In this document: positions 1 through 36,047 of the stretch, piece after piece
Numbering within the stretch: the stretch's first letter is position 1
Layout of the letters: every line of letters begins with the position of its first letter
Source: a virus
Virus record (IMG/VR): IMGVR_UViG_3300020583_000028
Span: 1 to 36,047 of that record
Length of the DNA stretch: 36,047 nucleotides
Strand: one strand, 5' to 3'
Position numbers and translations under genes: made by a program
The notes under the pieces: generated by a model
What the model was told of the DNA's origin: nothing
The model's input: only the letters and a program-made list of their open reading frames with translations
The model's database searches: none

Positions 1-126
1 GCGCTGAATCCGAATCCCAATCCAAATGATGCTTTGACGTGGCTGGAAAACAACGCCTTGTACATCGGCGGGGCGATCGCCGCTTTGGTTTTGATCAACA
101 ATTTCACGGGAGGAAAGCGCCGATGA
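1..126 (+). CDS. C-terminal end of the anchored protein that starts at 35213
   Basis: Reading from base 1 gives the last 41 residues of the protein encoded at 35213-36046, ending at the TGA at 124-126. It contains the Asn-Pro rich linker, the Trp of the anchor motif, one hydrophobic span and the basic GGKRR tail. It is the duplicate made by the circular overlap, not a separate gene. Confidence 0.9.
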   Translation, partial: ALNPNPNPNDALTWLENNALYIGGAIAALVLINNFTGGKRR

Positions 127-2810: not shown

Positions 2811-3575
2811 ATGCAACTTCTTAGCAAGGTAAAGAGATTCGCTCATTTGCCGGAAATTTCGGCGCATGAAATCGGCCGGCCCCGCTTCCGCTTGAAAAAC
2901 ATGCTGGCGGCAGGGTTGGGAGATTTCGTGGTTCAGCCGGAATGGGATTATTACGGCGTGGCGGTTTCCACGGCGGTAGTGAAGCAAACGCTGTTCTCGA
3001 TCGTGCAGAACAACAACTTCACCATCACCGGCGGCGCCACGGTTGCGAAAACCCTGCAGATGACCAGCATGGTGCAGCCGAACCAGTTGCAGGCCCCCGA
3101 ACGGATGCTCGTTCGCGGGATCACCTGCGTGCTGGACAATCTGTGCAACCAGACGGACGCCATCAAGTTCGGAAGCCAGACCATTGTGAACTTTTTCATC
3201 TCCACGAAATCGTTCTTTGTGGTCGCGCACTTCCTGAAACTTCCGGCGGGCGGCGGCATCTGGGCGCAGCAATTCGGCGCCACGGCGGCCAACACCATCA
3301 TCGGGCCGGTAGGCAACGGGTTGCCCAACGAGCACCAGGGATTCCGCTTGACGGATCCCGGATGCCCAGGCACTCCCGGCGTCGACCAGTTCCCGGAAAT
3401 CGACGGCATTTTGATTGCCCAGCAACAGGCGTTCAAAGTGGAAGTCGATCCCACGCTGGCGGCCTGGGCGCAAGCCACGGGCTTCACCACCAACGCGAAC
3501 AATACCGTGCCCATCGGCACGGGCATCAATGCGTGGGTGTATCTGGAAGGGCAGAAGGCACGAGCCGTTCTGTAG
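2811..3575 (+). CDS. major capsid protein candidate, 254 aa
   Basis: Start at 2811 is set by AAGGAG ten bases upstream. The 254 residues are neutral, beta rich and lack any signal or membrane span. The order of motifs is what I associate with capsid proteins of tailless phages: an N-terminal basic arm; TxxMVQPNQLQAPERMLVRGI (about residues 84-105); a strand ending FFISTKSFF; a glycine-rich LPAGGGIW turn (about 143); NGLPNE; and a C-terminal VYLEGQKAR strand. That points to a jelly-roll type fold, but this is pattern recognition, not a search. It is preceded by the strongly translated membrane protein and followed by three more beta-rich proteins, the expected neighbourhood of capsid genes. 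Confidence 0.6.
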   Translation: MQLLSKVKRFAHLPEISAHEIGRPRFRLKNMLAAGLGDFVVQPEWDYYGVAVSTAVVKQTLFSIVQNNNFTITGGATVAKTLQMTSMVQPNQLQAPERMLVRGITCVLDNLCNQTDAIKFGSQTIVNFFISTKSFFVVAHFLKLPAGGGIWAQQFGATAANTIIGPVGNGLPNEHQGFRLTDPGCPGTPGVDQFPEIDGILIAQQQAFKVEVDPTLAAWAQATGFTTNANNTVPIGTGINAWVYLEGQKARAVL

Positions 3576-3695
3576 CGCGTGCGGACCTCCGACATTCGAT
3601 GCGCGGATGCCGGAACAACTCGATCGCGGGCCGTAGACGCGAAGGCGTGGCGGCCCGCACGCAGTACGCTGGATGGCGGGGAAGGGAATCGCGTC

Positions 3696-4256
3696 GTGAA
3701 AACCATTCGTACGATTTTCGATCTAGATCAGCACGCGCTCGATCTGGCGAACGAGATGCCGGTAGCGATGGGAAGTTCGCAAGTGCCGGCACTCACGCAG
3801 GATCAAATGAATGCGCTGCAAGCCGATCCGCAAATCATGGAACTGGGCGGCCAGCTATACATCGCCAAATTGTTTCACTACATCGTCAATCTGACGCATG
3901 CGGGGAACGACACCCAGGCGCAATCGTTCCAGATTGACAGCGACGCCGATTTTCAGCTTTTGATGCTGATCGGCAGCCGCACCAGCAACGCCCTCAGCAT
4001 TCAGGTGACGGAAGGCGGCGCCGGCGGGCTGGCCTGGCAGAGCGCTCCCGTGAACTTCGACAATTTCGTGGGCACGGCGCAACTGCCGTTCCCGGCGGGG
4101 CTGATTCCCCAACTCATGCCCAAAAAGCGCTCGTACAAGGTCACGACGATTGACACGAGCGGCACGGCGAACACCGTGCAAGTGGATTTCTGGGGCTACA
4201 AGCTGTATCCGGCGGCGATGGCCGCGCAGCTTGGGGCGTTGCCAAGTCCAAACTAG
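3696..4256 (+). CDS. jelly-roll-like capsid or vertex protein A, 186 aa
   Basis: I choose the GTG at 3696 because GGGGAAGGGAA lies 7-8 bases upstream; the frame is open back to 3579 but the upstream residues are Arg-rich and uncharacteristic. The 120 bases 3576-3695 then form a leader in which I see nothing else. The mature 186 residues show DADFQLLMLIGSRTSN, then a VTEGG turn, then an IPQLMPKKRSYKVTT strand and a final VDFWGYKLYP strand. The same order occurs in the next gene (DFWLVAVMGRAS, ITEEEG, VRIPHF, LCMFGYSTWW), so the two look like diverged tandem duplicates. Two small single-jelly-roll proteins side by side are known in some membrane-containing tailless phages and archaeal viruses. 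Confidence 0.6.
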   Translation: MKTIRTIFDLDQHALDLANEMPVAMGSSQVPALTQDQMNALQADPQIMELGGQLYIAKLFHYIVNLTHAGNDTQAQSFQIDSDADFQLLMLIGSRTSNALSIQVTEGGAGGLAWQSAPVNFDNFVGTAQLPFPAGLIPQLMPKKRSYKVTTIDTSGTANTVQVDFWGYKLYPAAMAAQLGALPSPN

Positions 4257-18870: not shown

Positions 18871-18889
18871 TGTCTTGGTCATCCTTACC

Positions 18890-18920
18890 GCGAAAGCGCC
18901 CCTTACCGGGAGCCTTTCGC
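18890..18920 (-). other. hairpin with GGTAA loop (member 2 of 3), leader of the zinc-ribbon gene
   Basis: On the minus strand GCGAAAG ... CCC-GGTAA-GGG ... CTTTCGC. The outer 7-bp stem differs in sequence from the hairpin at 2092 (GCAAAAG/CTTTTGC), with A-T replaced by G-C on both sides, while the loop and inner stem stay the same. It ends eight bases before the AAGGA ribosome site. Confidence 0.5.
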
Positions 18921-22473: not shown

Positions 22474-22502
22474 GAATCACCAGTCACGAATCACCAATCA
22501 CG
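22470..22502. repeat. family C repeat, between ATPase and the next gene
   Basis: TCACGAATCACCAGTCACGAATCACC units. It begins just at the ATPase stop codon (22498) and ends in the GTG start of the 71-residue gene (22473). Confidence 0.8.
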
Positions 22503-24324
22503 CTTTCTGTACTTGCACTTTCATTTCCGGGACTTCCTGAAAGCCGTCCGGCTCCAGGGTTAAAAAACCCATTTCGGTTAGGCGGTTCAACGGCTTGTAC
22601 AGGTTAGTGGTGGGTTGATCGCAGCCGCGGCGCTTTAATTCCTTTTGCACCGTGGGACCGTTGCGCGCCTGCTTGAAATAGCCTTCATGGACCAGGCGCG
22701 CGATGCGTCCGATGATCGTGGAATCGTCCATCTCCACGGTTTGCCGCTCCACCTTGACGCGCAGTTCCGGCCGGCGGGTGAGCAGTTCCATAATGCCGGG
22801 GTCTTTCTGCGCGCGGTCCACCACGTAGCGATAGATGGCTTCTTTATCGCCGCCGTTGGCGAAACCGTCTGCGGGAAGCGTTACGCCATGCTCGACCGAT
22901 CCGCGGGCAGTGATCACGCCGCGCAAACGACGTACTTCCTTGGCCAGCGCGTCGTGGGCTTCGATCAGCGTTTTGTGTTCCGCTTCTAGCGCTTCGTACT
23001 TTTCTCGCCACATTTTTTCATCGTCCTCGCTTTCAGACGCACGTAAAAGTGTTGCCGATACGGCATCGGAATTTGATTCCTGATCTTCGCTGGAATTTGA
23101 AACGTCGGAATCCGAAGCCCTGTCTCCCGGTAAAGCATTTCTCTCGTGTGGCTCATTTTCGTCCCTTTCTAAAGTTTGGATTTGCAGCAATTGATGCGGC
23201 GCCGGGGACGACGGCGCCGGTTTAGACTCTCGACTGATTTTGAACGCGCGCAGCATTTGCCGCGCGCTGGAAACGCTTTCCTCGCCTTTGGCGATGGCTT
23301 GGGCGTGCAATTCCGAGGACATCCAAGCGGGCTGCACGTACACCTTGGAAACGCGGGCTTCGGGCGTGCGCACGAAGAATTCCCCGATTTTCAAGCGGGC
23401 GATGTCCACCGGGCGAAGCGCGGGCGTAAAGAGGCCCGCTAAGCTGCGATCGATCTCATGCATTTCCGTTTGCACGCCGATGCCCACGATGGAGCAGGCG
23501 CGCAGCATGATCTTGTCCACCGCAGCCATATCCTGCGAATCAAGCCACATGAAGTTTTTATTGGCCCCGGCTTTGCGTACTAGGGTCTCGCAAGCCATCT
23601 TTACCGGGGAGTTTTTTCCTTGGGGCACGAAGTCCTGCGCTTCGGGCACGATCACCCGCACGCCCTTTTCGTGCTGGTACACCCACTCCATCACCGAACG
23701 GATCACTAGGGCTTGCGTTTCCATCGCGTATTCGCGCAGGTCCATCACGTTCAGGCCGGGATGCAGCGTGAGTTTTTTGGTATACGGCAGGCGTGACAGT
23801 TGCGGCATGACGATGTCGAAGTACGCTTTCAGGGACGTGTACACGCCGGCATTGATCCCGCTGACGGGTTTTCGGGTGTACTTCCATTCTCTTTTTTTCT
23901 TCTTTCCGCGCCCCTTTTCGACGTAGTCTCCCTCGCCGTCGAGCAGGGCTTTGATGTTTTCGTGCACGTCTTTCAACGCTTTGGCGATACGCGGTTCCAC
24001 GCAGCAGCGAATAATCCAGGCTTCCTCGAAATTCAGTTTGCGCTGTTGTGATGCTTCCAGGATGGATTTGACCCAGCGCCACAGCGGCTGCTCTTCGTCG
24101 TTGGTAGGTTCGGAAAAGTAAGGGGGAATCATTCGCCCCGTGAGAAATCCCCCCTCGCCTTGTTTGGTGATGAAGGCTACCGCGCGCAGCCCACCACGAA
24201 AGGCGATAGCCTCGAGCGCCGTAGTTTTCCCGGAAAGCTGCGTCTGGCCGAACCACGCCAGATGCCCCGTCTCCGGGATTTCCACGCGCTTTCCGGTGCC
24301 GATTTCCCAGCCGAGTAAAATCAT
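22498..24324 (-). CDS. HerA/FtsK-like P-loop ATPase, candidate genome-packaging motor, 608 aa
   Basis: Walker A is GQTQLSGKTT (residues 26-35), with an unusual extra residue before SGK. The Walker B counterpart is VIVPEAQDF: the acidic Glu is present but the preceding Asp of HerA-type DEA is replaced by Pro. A sensor-like WLDSQD follows, as the ATQ/SQ motif does in HerA. Residues 1-330 are the ATPase core; 340-440 is a Ser/Glu-rich linker; 410-450 is a predicted coiled coil; the last 120 residues look like a winged helix (LTRRPELRVKVE, MGFLTLEPDG). Tailless membrane viruses package DNA with this ATPase class, but theirs are usually much shorter. A transfer or segregation ATPase is the alternative. 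Start follows a family A array. Confidence 0.7.
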   Translation of the reverse strand: MILLGWEIGTGKRVEIPETGHLAWFGQTQLSGKTTALEAIAFRGGLRAVAFITKQGEGGFLTGRMIPPYFSEPTNDEEQPLWRWVKSILEASQQRKLNFEEAWIIRCCVEPRIAKALKDVHENIKALLDGEGDYVEKGRGKKKKREWKYTRKPVSGINAGVYTSLKAYFDIVMPQLSRLPYTKKLTLHPGLNVMDLREYAMETQALVIRSVMEWVYQHEKGVRVIVPEAQDFVPQGKNSPVKMACETLVRKAGANKNFMWLDSQDMAAVDKIMLRACSIVGIGVQTEMHEIDRSLAGLFTPALRPVDIARLKIGEFFVRTPEARVSKVYVQPAWMSSELHAQAIAKGEESVSSARQMLRAFKISRESKPAPSSPAPHQLLQIQTLERDENEPHERNALPGDRASDSDVSNSSEDQESNSDAVSATLLRASESEDDEKMWREKYEALEAEHKTLIEAHDALAKEVRRLRGVITARGSVEHGVTLPADGFANGGDKEAIYRYVVDRAQKDPGIMELLTRRPELRVKVERQTVEMDDSTIIGRIARLVHEGYFKQARNGPTVQKELKRRGCDQPTTNLYKPLNRLTEMGFLTLEPDGFQEVPEMKVQVQKA

Positions 24325-27739: not shown

Positions 27740-29107
27740 TTAGGGAAGGGAACCTATCTTTTTCTTAATGCGGTACACTTGGTAGCGGCTTAAATGTAGA
27801 TCGTCGGCTATTTCCGTTACTTTCATGCCCATCCCGAACATTTCGATGGCCCGTTTTTCCACCACGTCTTGCAATGCCCGGTGCGTGAACACCGATCCGC
27901 CCAGGGAATCGCTCTCCAGTCGCACTTCGAATGGCAGGACGGCATCGGCATCGTCGCCGCGGTATTTTTCGCAGTGGACTTCGCAGCGCAAAAGCTGATC
28001 CGGGGAATAATCGGAGGGATGGCGCATCATCAAAATCGCGTCTAGAAAATCTTCCCGCTTGGAAGTGCCGCGCTGCGCGCCGCTTTTTCCGGCGTGGTGC
28101 AAAAGTTGCGTAGTGATTCCCTTGTGCCGCAATTCGATCAGCCATTCCTGGGTAGACGCCCAGCCCTCTTCGTCCTCTTTCCCGGTGCGGCACAGGGCGC
28201 TGATATTGTCCAGAACGAGAAACGTGCCTTCCTGCAAATGATCCTCGATCAACCGTTGGCCTTGCAATTCGGCAATGTTGGGCGCGCGCTTGTCGATGGT
28301 GCGGTTGATGAAGTTCATCATGCCTTCTTCCGGCGGTTGCATCCCGTGCGCCTTCACGATCCCTTGCCAGCGGGCTTGCAATTGATTGTGAGGGAGCTCG
28401 CCGTCCACGTACACCACGCGGCGCGCTTTGGGAATTCTCCACTGGCACCACTTCGCCGCGCCGATGGAAATGGAATAGCAGCCGTCCAGCATGAAGTAGG
28501 TTTTTCCGCAACCGCGCCAAGCGTAGAGCATTCCCAATCCTTGCGTGGGTAGGATGGGATCGATCACGAATTCCAGCGGACTTGTGTCCATCGTTAGCAG
28601 TTCGCGTCCGTCGATCAATCGCAGATGGTTTCCGTTGCCATTCGTGGACGCGCGGACGGTGTTCTGAAACTCGGCGTACAGATCATCGTAACTCGTGAAG
28701 TTGTTAGCGGCTCCCGTGACCATTTTTTCGCCGGCGCGCATCATTTGCCGGCGCAAGGATTTGTCGTGGACGATGCTGGCGTAGTGCGACACATTCGATA
28801 CGGAAGGAACTCCATCCATCAATTTGGAAAGGTATCCCACGCCGCCGGCCAGTTCTGTTTTGCGCTGCTCTTCCAGGCGATTGAACAGAGTCAACGTGTC
28901 GATTGCGGTTCCGGCTTCGTGAAGGAAAATCATTTCGTGGAAAATGATTTGGTTTTCAGGCAGCGAAAAATCCGCGGATTTCAGTTTGTCGGTCGCGGCC
29001 TTAAATGCGGCGTCGGTGGGATCGATCAGGATAGCGCCAAGCACGGCCTTTTCCGCTTCGATATTTTTCGGCAGTTCGGGAGCGGGTTGCGCGGCGCTTT
29101 GGGTCAT
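27740..29107 (-). CDS. DnaB-like replicative helicase with RecA-like ATPase and C-terminal HTH, 455 aa
   Basis: Residues 14-130 match the DnaB N-terminal helical domain (IEAEKAVLGAILIDPT, LPENQIIFHEM, IDTLTLFNRLEE, GGVGYLSKLMDGVPS). Residues 185-400 are a RecA-type ATPase of the RepA/AAA_25 style: Walker A LYAWRGCGKTYF, VVYVDGELP, Walker B FLVLDNIS, then TQLLHHAGKSG. So it combines a DnaB-type front with a RepA-type core. Residues 420-452 form a helix-turn-helix ending (EMFGMGMKVTEIADDLHLSRYQVYRIKKK), which may bind the neighbouring origin-like repeats. It unwinds DNA for replication and would load on the virus origin. Start overlaps TGA of an unlikely upstream frame (ATGA); no ribosome site. 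Confidence 0.85.
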   Translation of the reverse strand: MTQSAAQPAPELPKNIEAEKAVLGAILIDPTDAAFKAATDKLKSADFSLPENQIIFHEMIFLHEAGTAIDTLTLFNRLEEQRKTELAGGVGYLSKLMDGVPSVSNVSHYASIVHDKSLRRQMMRAGEKMVTGAANNFTSYDDLYAEFQNTVRASTNGNGNHLRLIDGRELLTMDTSPLEFVIDPILPTQGLGMLYAWRGCGKTYFMLDGCYSISIGAAKWCQWRIPKARRVVYVDGELPHNQLQARWQGIVKAHGMQPPEEGMMNFINRTIDKRAPNIAELQGQRLIEDHLQEGTFLVLDNISALCRTGKEDEEGWASTQEWLIELRHKGITTQLLHHAGKSGAQRGTSKREDFLDAILMMRHPSDYSPDQLLRCEVHCEKYRGDDADAVLPFEVRLESDSLGGSVFTHRALQDVVEKRAIEMFGMGMKVTEIADDLHLSRYQVYRIKKKIGSLP

Positions 29108-29114
29108 GCGGATA

Positions 29115-29172
29115 CCGGAGGTTGGAGATTCGAGGTTGGAGGTTCGATCGGGTCTAACTGCAAACTTCCAAT
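29115..29172. repeat. gene-boundary repeat, family A, ahead of the helicase
   Basis: GGAGGTTGGAGATTCGAGGTTGG units meet TCGATCGGGTCTAACTGC and complementary units. On the minus strand it forms the leader of the helicase gene, ending eight bases before the ATG. Confidence 0.75.
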
Positions 29173-29195
29173 ATCTGATTTTGTTTTTTCCATGA

Positions 29196-29246
29196 TTGCC
29201 AGGACGAAACCGGGGCGCTCCGAGCCTGGCAAGGTAGAGCGCCCCG
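29196..29246 (-). ncRNA. crossing-stem (H-type) pseudoknot candidate
   Basis: Two perfect stems interlock. Stem 1: CGGGGCGCTC (29211-29220) with GAGCGCCCCG (29237-29246), 10 bp. Stem 2: TTGCCAGG (29196-29203) with CCTGGCAA (29225-29232), 8 bp; one arm of each lies within the loop of the other. Read on the minus strand, the way this operon is transcribed, the loops are 4, 4 and 8 bases, which is geometrically sensible. It lies between the small cassette gene and the helicase. It could be a regulatory RNA or replication-control structure. No known riboswitch class was recognised. Confidence 0.6.
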
Positions 29247-29262
29247 ATTCCCTTCGTATGGG

Positions 29263-29298
29263 GCTTGACACCCTGGGCGGACTAGACTCAGGGCAAGC
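29263..29298. other. hairpin next to the pseudoknot
   Basis: GCTTG and CAAGC flank CCCTG and CAGGG with a three-base bulge, giving a 10-bp interrupted stem around a 13-base loop. Together with the pseudoknot it makes 29196-29298 one folded block in which no gene is credible. Confidence 0.5.
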
Positions 29299-29364
29299 GG
29301 AGACGAAAGTACGGGAATCATCTATCGCGGTCAAGAGGGAATCGCCGTGGGTGTTCAAAGAGCC

Positions 29365-29393
29365 TGTGGGAAAACTGTGGAAACTGTGGAAAA
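29365..29393. other. DnaA-box-like tandem sites
   Basis: TGTGGGAAAA (29365), TGTGGAAA (29376) and TGTGGAAAA (29385) run in tandem, spaced 11 and 9 bases. Their complement, TTTTCCACA, is close to the DnaA box consensus TTATNCACA. They lie about 260 bases upstream of the helicase start, so host DnaA could act here. Confidence 0.45.
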
Positions 29394-29395
29394 GT

Positions 29396-29463
29396 TCTGG
29401 AGGTTTGAGATTAGATGTTCGAAGTTAGATCGATCCGACCTCCAACATCTAACTTCTAAAATC
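29396..29463. repeat. gene-boundary repeat, family A, hairpin
   Basis: GGAGGTTTGAGATTAGATGTTCG units, centre GATCGATCC, then complementary GACCTCCAACATCTAAC units. It lies between the DnaA-like sites and the next structured block and not beside a gene, the one clear exception to the gene-boundary rule. Confidence 0.75.
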
Positions 29464-29466
29464 AAA

Positions 29467-29543
29467 CCCGGCGCGATGGTCTGGCGGATTAGGGACCGCG
29501 CTCCCACCTGTGGCGCCGGGTAAACGAGGATGGTCAATCCTCG
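29467..29543 (-). ncRNA. structured, tRNA-like non-coding block
   Basis: CCCGGCGC (29467-29474) pairs perfectly with GCGCCGGG (29513-29520). Inside, on the minus strand, GCGG-TCCCTAAT-CCGC (29484-29499) is like a tRNA anticodon arm and is followed by a GGGTTTGATT that is like a T-loop, but the acceptor and T-stem pairings are missing and the repeat array at 29396-29463 begins there. A second hairpin, CGAGGAT-GGTCA-ATCCTCG, is at 29525-29543. It may be a degraded tRNA or an unrelated regulatory RNA. The stretch 29544-29609 holds no gene that I can support. Confidence 0.4.
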
Positions 29544-29609
29544 CAGCTTGGTTCATCGAGATAGGGAACGTGAGGAAACCCATCTCATCCGGGGGAAGAA
29601 TAACAAAAA

Positions 29610-29640
29610 CAGTGGCTAGTGGCTAGTGGTTAGTGACTAG
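29610..29640. repeat. family B repeat, downstream side of the cassette gene
   Basis: AGTGGCTAGTGGCTAGTGGTTAGTG units. It overlaps the last codon region of the 61-residue gene. The opposite-orientation partner lies at its start (29820-29853). Confidence 0.8.
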
Positions 29641-29822
29641 AGTAACGATGGGAATTTCGGTGTGTCCATTTTGAAACCTTCGTCATCCGCAATCCATACT
29701 ATTTCATGCCTCTGTCCATCGTTCACTGAATGAACGTACTCGTCCGCTTTTTCTTTCGAGGAAAACGCTCCGACAGGCCACTTGTCCTCATGCGAATCCT
29801 TCATGACGATCCAGATTTTCAC
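29637..29822 (-). CDS. small protein bracketed by inverted repeats (cassette-like), 61 aa
   Basis: Starts at the GTG at 29822 formed by the repeat (CTAGTGAAAATCTGG). The 61 residues make a small alpha/beta fold: a strand KIWIVMKD, helix SSKEKADEYVHSVND, then HEIVWIADDEGFKMD, the type of small phage protein that reads as a compact sheet. Both ends coincide with family B arrays in inverted orientation, and the first codons are the same as those of the gene at 26047, so GTGAAAATCTGG is a recurrent gene start. Confidence 0.65.
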   Translation of the reverse strand: MKIWIVMKDSHEDKWPVGAFSSKEKADEYVHSVNDGQRHEIVWIADDEGFKMDTPKFPSLL

Positions 29823-35216: not shown

Positions 35217-36046
35217 TTTTTCCGAACCATCCCGCGTTTGAGGAACTTCGGTCCGGAATGGGCATGGGTTATCAACCCGGCGCGCACGCCATGCTCGGCT
35301 ATCAACCCGGCGCGCATGCGATGCTGGGATACCACGCGGGATCGCACGGTAATCTTGGCACTGTTTCTGACGCACAGATGCAAGCAGCTTGGGATGCCGG
35401 TCTTGACGGCAACACAATCGATGCGTTGAGCGCTGCGGGCGCTACGGATGCTGACATTCAAGCGTTGATGGCTGGCACGACTGACGTAGCTACTCTGATG
35501 GCGAAATATGCAGGATTGCAAACCACCGAAGGGACTACAGTCACGGCCACTACGTCACACACGACGCCATCTCCCACGCCAACTAACCCGGCTCAATCTC
35601 CTCCCGGTAGTACGCTGCTCTATACGGTCTCTTACAACCCAGTGAAAGCATTTTCGACGGCATCGTCTGTGATTTCACAGATCGCCGCATTGTTGCCCTC
35701 TCACGGCATGGCGATGGCGACGAACGCGGTTCAACAATCGGGACTGACATCGCAAGCCTCTTTTACGATGACCATTCTTGACAGCGTGGGGCATCAATAC
35801 CTGAGCGATGCGCAATCCGTGCTCGATGGTTTACTGAATCAATTCACCAACAACGGGAAACTCACTTCTAGCGTTACGCTCGTTTCCGCAGGGACAACAG
35901 CGAGCGGAACTCCCGGAGGAGCGCTGAATCCGAATCCCAATCCAAATGATGCTTTGACGTGGCTGGAAAACAACGCCTTGTACATCGGCGGGGCGATCGC
36001 CGCTTTGGTTTTGATCAACAATTTCACGGGAGGAAAGCGCCGATGA
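35213..36046 (+). CDS. anchored virion-type protein with decapeptide repeats, 277 aa (continues across the circle join)
   Basis: Start at ATG 35213 (ATGA overlap, with AAAGGG nearby); the longer frame from 35105 is a shadow. MIFPNHPAFE opens it. Residues 19-48 are three tandem decapeptides (GYQPGAHAML twice, then GYHAGSHGNL). Residues 50-90 are helical (QAAWDAGLDGNTIDALSAAG); the middle is Thr/Ser/Pro-rich; 130-210 is an alpha/beta-looking soluble domain; a short Asn-Pro linker leads to the anchor end ALTWLENNALYIGG, hydrophobic span and GGKRR. The end is duplicated at 1-126 because of the circular overlap. Confidence 0.75.
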   Translation: MIFPNHPAFEELRSGMGMGYQPGAHAMLGYQPGAHAMLGYHAGSHGNLGTVSDAQMQAAWDAGLDGNTIDALSAAGATDADIQALMAGTTDVATLMAKYAGLQTTEGTTVTATTSHTTPSPTPTNPAQSPPGSTLLYTVSYNPVKAFSTASSVISQIAALLPSHGMAMATNAVQQSGLTSQASFTMTILDSVGHQYLSDAQSVLDGLLNQFTNNGKLTSSVTLVSAGTTASGTPGGALNPNPNPNDALTWLENNALYIGGAIAALVLINNFTGGKRR

Positions 36047-36047
36047 C
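35921..36047. repeat. terminal direct repeat, right copy
   Basis: Identical to bases 1-127. It includes the C-terminus of the decapeptide-repeat protein and the first bases of the gene at 123. Confidence 0.95.

Follow-up and report, generated by a model that had tools for sequence, protein, structure and literature searches.

Shape-conserved pseudoknot at the first start codon of the helicase operon in a family of uncultured phages, a candidate translational gate

Helicase operon and pseudoknot of the window

The window (the whole stretch of DNA analysed, 36,047 nucleotides; IMG/VR record IMGVR_UViG_3300020583_000028) carries identical 127-base terminal repeats at 1-127 and 35921-36047, which makes it very likely that the record is a circular genome, complete at 35,920 bp. 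A replicative helicase with a DnaB N-terminal domain, an AAA_25 ATPase domain and a weak C-terminal helix-turn-helix is encoded on the minus strand (27740..29107), and the RNA of interest is thus the transcript with minus-strand sense. The helicase ATG at 29107 is overlapped (ATGA) by the stop codon of a 29-codon ORF (29104..29193, minus strand; ATG 29193-29191), and a pseudoknot lies immediately before this ORF. A sequence-only reading of the same DNA had assigned the pseudoknot to the leader of the helicase message, without giving its strand; this position was confirmed, the last knot arm ending 2 nt before the ATG at 29193 of the coupled ORF.

The core of the H-type pseudoknot (29196..29246, minus strand, 51 nt) consists, in mRNA sense, of a perfect 10-bp stem (S1) interlocked with a perfect 8-bp stem (S2), exactly as previously described. 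From the 5′ side it is composed of S1a (CGGGGCGCTC, 29246-29237), L1 (TACC, 29236-29233), S2a (TTGCCAGG, 29232-29225), L2 (CTCG, 29224-29221), S1b (GAGCGCCCCG, 29220-29211), L3 (GTTTCGT, 29210-29204) and S2b (CCTGGCAA, 29203-29196), all on the minus strand. With an outer extension containing G-U pairs, S1 reaches 15 bp (GGAATCGGGGCGCTC / GAGCGCCCCGGTTTC, 29206..29251, minus strand). The stacking sums were -17.2 for S2, -26.0 for the 10-bp S1 and -32.6 for the 15-bp S1, and S2 thus outweighs the outer five pairs of S1. The 15-bp form leaves just 1-2 nt for L3; therefore, full-length S1 and S2 may compete for L3.

The window knot was the best-scoring perfect-stem pseudoknot genome-wide (stacking score, -42.9; runner-up, -36.4) and was equalled in none of 40 dinucleotide-shuffled genomes (best shuffled score, -42.6), which bears out the earlier judgement that such an arrangement is very unlikely by chance. 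Pairs of stems with minimum lengths of 8 and 10 bp arose 0.025 times per dinucleotide-shuffled genome (40 genomes), and 0 of 200 shuffled leaders were as good as the window knot. At gathering scores, no Rfam match was obtained in the window or in six member loci; the Rfam hit BSnc115 (E, 0.48; score 17, cut-off 115) was rejected as chance.

Repeats are present elsewhere in the window. A dispersed palindrome, GCGAAAG-CCCC-GG(T/C)AA-GGGG-CTTTCGC, occurs at 2094-2122 and 18889-18917, and in or near the leader of four related records (inside L3 in L126 and L130, upstream of the knot in L127 and L129). Dispersed repeat families of 14-40 nt (TTCGTGATTCGTGA-type and CTCCAACTTCTAACTTC-type) occupy intergenic DNA between 4254 and 29467, on both sides of the knot.

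Related viruses and conservation of the pseudoknot

The helicase as a single query found no relatives, and the related records were collected with an ATPase-like protein of the window (22501-24324, minus strand), which yielded 30 related virus loci. A helicase profile applied to whole records gave full-length matches in 14 of the 30 loci (17 at any level, the other three being short and partial), and L249 (a contig listed with a Terriglobia MAG), L309, L320, L322 and L323 were added by profile scans. The knot family comprises these five, the window, L122, L123, L124, L126-L130, L132-L134, L158, L164 and L165, 20 records in total. Relatives of the ATPase-like protein occur in many viral contigs, as well as in MAG contigs with bacterial and archaeal labels; the protein had no match in Pfam, PHROG or PDB, nor in the phage and plasmid collections searched. 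Two further window proteins, 2811-3572 (capsid-like) and 3699-4253, are common to the virus family and likely structural: the former is encoded in all 18 other family records searched (L249 being outside the search), and the latter in 14 of 14 searched. No Pfam, PHROG or PDB match was found for the former, whose AlphaFold model had a pLDDT of 37, and no Pfam or PHROG match for 3579-4253, the longer frame of the latter.

An H-type pseudoknot was found in the helicase operon leader of all 20 records with this DnaB-type helicase, in 17 distinct knot sequences. The order of elements is the same in every leader: S1a (S1 of about 8-16 bp), L1 (3-9 nt), S2a (S2 of 8-12 bp), L2 (0-6 nt), S1b, L3, S2b and ATG. 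L3 is short in the window group and extends up to about 80 nt, with the inserted repeat, in L126 and L130. The stem arms change sequence completely between lineages with pairing retained, as illustrated by L133 (CGCCGAGCGTT/AACGCTCGGCG and TGGCTTGCTG/CAGCAAGCCA), L320 (CGGCTTTTCCGG/CCGGAGAAGCCG and TTAGCGGCAACT/AGTTGCCGCTAA) and L323 (GGGAGCGG/CCGCTCCC and TGGCAGGTTGG/CCGACCTGCCA), and no loop base was conserved between lineages in the family alignment. Covariation among relatives had been proposed as a check on the structure, and loss of pairing as grounds to abandon it; pairing was kept through sequence change in 20 of 20 records.

Stems of the divergent members were picked by a complementarity search and their alignment is structural; the shuffle test, which repeats that search, is therefore a fair control. 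Seventeen of the 20 leaders were never matched by 200 dinucleotide shuffles each, and L134 was matched by one of 200; L126 and L130, unscored under standard loop limits, were matched by 0 of 200 shuffles under wider limits. Among 15 representatives, 3-6 standard pair types occurred in every one of 16 inner pair columns, and 3′ arms dealt to other sequences paired in 43% of cells (maximum, 53%). Variation of the stems is slight among the seven closest sequences: all cells of S1 (100%) are paired, outer S1 pairs change one-sidedly only, a standard pair being kept, including through G-U, and the covariation score was not above control (354/500 shuffles). As these seven are uninformative, the support from covariation comes from the divergent members.

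A tandem pair of 3′ arms (CCTGGC...CCTGGCAA) precedes the ATG in L123 (4254-4353), in the leaders of L126 and L130, and in L164 (about 1397-1485). Both arms are able to pair with one loop, a possible register switch.

When all distant relatives of the ATPase were scanned for knots before start codons, many of the hits listed were chance GC-rich matches inside ORFs, and only L249 and L309 were accepted because their knot lies in the leader directly before a DnaB-type ORF. In a scan of 80 loci, whose limits left out three family members (L317, L318 and L326), a knot of some kind lay close to a start codon in 15; six of these belong to the family and carry it where the helicase operon begins, and the other nine, being scattered, were taken as chance. 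Matches of a loose DNA pattern scan were likewise discarded as chance.

Eleven further records encode the capsid-like protein, none of them with such a helicase, and in the 10 whose loci were scanned (all except L452; for some records the scans covered parts only) no like element was found. Two of the 10 loci had no knot-at-start hit, the best hits of the others (up to three each) were without promoter, and a scan of every hit with a promoter returned none in L444, L445, L448 and L449. L324 and L325, which carry helicase relatives outside the family, had no knot at the start. Since capsid relatives without the helicase lack the knot where examined, the knot seems to move with the helicase module rather than with the virus family.

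Strand sense, first start codon and promoter

Positions at which a Watson-Crick stem breaks once and then continues were counted in mRNA sense; they comprised 11 G-U, one C-A and one G-A (L126, L130 and L165 not scored, and counts not all independent, some records being close relatives). By sequence, further G-U pairs are present in L165 (three), L126 and L130 (one each), and L126 and L130 have one C-A each. Because the interruptions are G-U (11) rather than C-A (1), the element appears to act as mRNA and not as DNA; neither an antisense RNA nor an element of the DNA would be expected to show this preference, which points to the mRNA. The knot block is 51, 51, 52, 47, 46, 46 and 55 nt long in the seven closest records. 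These indels are not multiples of three, which rules out a coding explanation and agrees with the earlier impression that no coding frame in the block is convincing.

The end of S2b falls between -2 and +4 nt relative to the ATG in all 20 records (2 nt inside to 4 nt before), and in L132 and L134 the S2b pairing takes in the AU of the AUG. A conserved mRNA-sense pseudoknot thus overlaps or abuts the initiation region. The knot-adjacent ATG is the helicase start in 11 of the 20 records, and elsewhere the first gene varies: a 145-aa DnaB-N-only protein in L309, short ORFs of 29, 31 and 36 codons in the window, L122 and L128, respectively, cytosine-methylase-like ORFs in L124 (above the Pfam cut-off), L158 (below it) and L127 (by sequence likeness only), and proteins without Pfam match in L123 and L129. 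Given this variation, the knot is linked with the place where ribosomes enter rather than with any single protein. A stop/start overlap (ATGA, TGATG or GTGA) was found in all eight window-subgroup records whose first ORF is foreign or short. The start of the short ORF of L128 resembles the methylase ORF of L127, and it looks like a deletion remnant that retains coupling. Shine-Dalgarno-like sites (-4.5 or better) were present at 3 of 20 knot ATGs versus 86 of 221 other long ORFs; being rare at knot ATGs and uncommon elsewhere too, such sites are not obviously what S2 conceals.

A sigma-70-like promoter (TTGACC-17-TACTTT, 29306..29334, minus strand) places the predicted start of the RNA some 105 nt upstream of the ATG at 29193. 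The pattern TTGA[CA]-17..19-[TC][AG]nnnT was located 115-194 nt upstream of the ATG in 20 of 20 leaders, and its strict TTGAC form in 19 of 20, versus a mean of 0.61 and a maximum of 3 in shuffled leaders. Upstream of the knot promoter, after the preceding gene, inspection by eye revealed a GC hairpin of terminator-like form, whose inner hairpin (GGTGGTTCGACCATC) is conserved, in L122, L123, L130, L158 and L164.

Predicted translational gate, alternatives and known systems

On sequence grounds, the structure, conservation, sense strand, promoter pattern, position and coupling overlap of the element appear established. Three features argue for a role in translation initiation: the spacing between knot and start codon is constant, the G-U pairs are those of the sense strand, and the knot is not bound to any particular following gene. 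We consider it rather probable that the knot is a cis-acting translational gate of the phage replication (helicase) operon, in which S2 closes and opens the ribosome landing site. The pseudoknot would form much of the 5′ untranslated leader of this operon in one family of uncultured phages, with S1 as a long hairpin whose loop carries S2a, the partner of the S2b that lies directly before, or reaches into, the first start codon. Closure of S2 would make the 30S landing site double-stranded up to the AUG, and we infer that initiation would be blocked; with S2 open, S2b and L3 (about 15 nt or more) would be free beside the AUG, the ribosome could enter, and the first ORF would be translated. Where this ORF is not the helicase, re-initiation on the helicase would follow through the overlapping stop and start codons. 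Opening of S2 is presumed to be regulated by a signal, the regulator being a product of the helicase module; the co-occurrence of the knot with the helicase makes the helicase itself the prime candidate. A constitutive knot would fit equally well.

The same proximity to the AUG might have the opposite meaning, that it is the knot which brings the ribosome there, or sets its position, without a Shine-Dalgarno sequence, as a bacterial IRES-like device. The knot ends right at the AUG in 20/20 records and its shape is conserved while its letters are not; foreign first genes use the knot-adjacent ATG, with the helicase then reached by stop/start overlap, and because knot ATGs are mostly without a Shine-Dalgarno-like site (3/20 with such a duplex) a stimulatory role is conceivable. 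A stem ending at about -2 should, however, clash with the mRNA channel of the 30S subunit, other genes of these viruses often lack a Shine-Dalgarno sequence too, and no phage precedent was found in the accessible text of the open-licence PubMed Central literature, so that this positive role is judged unlikely. A specific form of it, a shape-only phage entry device that loads ribosomes at the adjacent AUG without Shine-Dalgarno sequence, makes any gene behind it the first translated and leaves the helicase to coupling, is similarly doubtful; if it were true, the members with tandem 3′ arms (L123, L126, L130 and L164) would switch register between entry-competent and closed forms.

Improbable as well is a leader acting at the level of transcription, by antitermination, pausing or stabilisation of the mRNA 5′ end near the promoter. 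Transcripts of the 20 leaders are predicted to begin only 79-158 nt ahead of the ATG, which places the knot near the 5′ end, and a GC-rich hairpin in that position could be protective. The promoter-to-knot distance is variable, however, whereas the knot-to-ATG distance is constant, and no terminator-like site was detected in the window at 29000-29700.

The sequence-only reading had offered control of helicase expression or, alternatively, a replication-initiation structure. The former is upheld by the fixed start-codon distance, the G-U pairs and the promoter upstream; the latter fits less well, although repeats which we take to be DnaA-box-like lie upstream in many members (TTTTCCACA / TTTCCACA / TTTTCCCACA at 29370..29393, minus strand, in the window). 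Of the 20 leaders, 9 contain TTTTCCACA and 15 contain TCCACA. The cumulative GC skew of the window is lowest around 26-29 kb, beside these repeats, a possible replication origin. These features and the neighbouring helicase gene would suit a cruciform or protein-bound inverted repeats of an origin acting as DNA. Against this, the interruptions are G-U and not C-A, the arm sequences are wholly different between lineages, the ATG distance is fixed, and TCCACA is absent from five of the 20 leaders scanned (L164, L165, L249, L320 and L322); we regard such an element as quite improbable.

A metabolite riboswitch in the style of SAM-II, SAM-SAH or preQ1 would share the logic of a pseudoknot helix adjoining the start codon; it is very improbable, given the lack of an Rfam gathering-score match in the window or six member loci, loop bases that are not conserved between lineages, and downstream genes without an evident common metabolite. 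Least credible is a knot controlled by antisense RNA, for which the replication gene behind a leader pseudoknot recalls IncB/IncL-type repA leaders, as an antisense promoter-like pattern was found in 1 of 20 leaders against 0.49 expected.

As a translational gate or otherwise, the element is a strongly supported new RNA family with a single architecture, hardly any common letters and a constant place at the first-gene start codon; such families evade sequence-seeded searches. The knot provides a small defined test object for how initiation in bacteria can be permitted or controlled by a structure that touches the AUG. It also offers a way into a virus family for which the searched collections of known phages and plasmids contained no match.

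In the accessible open-licence PubMed Central literature, no report of this knot element was found. In the intergenic-region IRES of dicistroviruses, which operates in eukaryotic hosts, a pseudoknot stands directly before the first codon as part of a far larger three-knot fold; the phage knot likewise abuts the first codon, without a large three-knot fold. The repA leaders of IncB, IncI1 and IncL plasmids contain a pseudoknot controlled by antisense RNA and a leader peptide, and thus resemble the phage leaders in having a pseudoknot before a replication gene, but there is no antisense promoter signal across the phage leaders. SAM/SAH and SAM-II riboswitches have a conserved ligand-binding core. 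In the family described here, unlike SAM-II, SAM-SAH and preQ1, the loops differ freely, most members lack a Shine-Dalgarno sequence, and no covariance model matched. The likeness to SAM/SAH and SAM-II lies in an H-type pseudoknot with the 3′ arm over the ribosome landing site, as set out for SAM/SAH (PMC7367207).

The T4/RB69 gene 32 operator is a pseudoknot in the mRNA leader of a phage replication gene in which structure counts over sequence (PMC535899), the knot of about 28 nt lying upstream of a less structured UUAAA-bearing stretch of >40 nt with the ribosome-binding site. Unlike this operator, the family knot is at least 46 nt long and ends at the AUG, with no >40-nt UUAAA/ribosome-binding stretch after it. 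Gene 32 encodes a self-repressing single-strand binding protein, whereas the first ORF here is a helicase, a methylase, another protein or a short ORF, and the window genome had no match to a PF00436-type SSB. The phage leaders and gene 32 have in common a phage replication gene, a leader pseudoknot and a structure that outweighs sequence.
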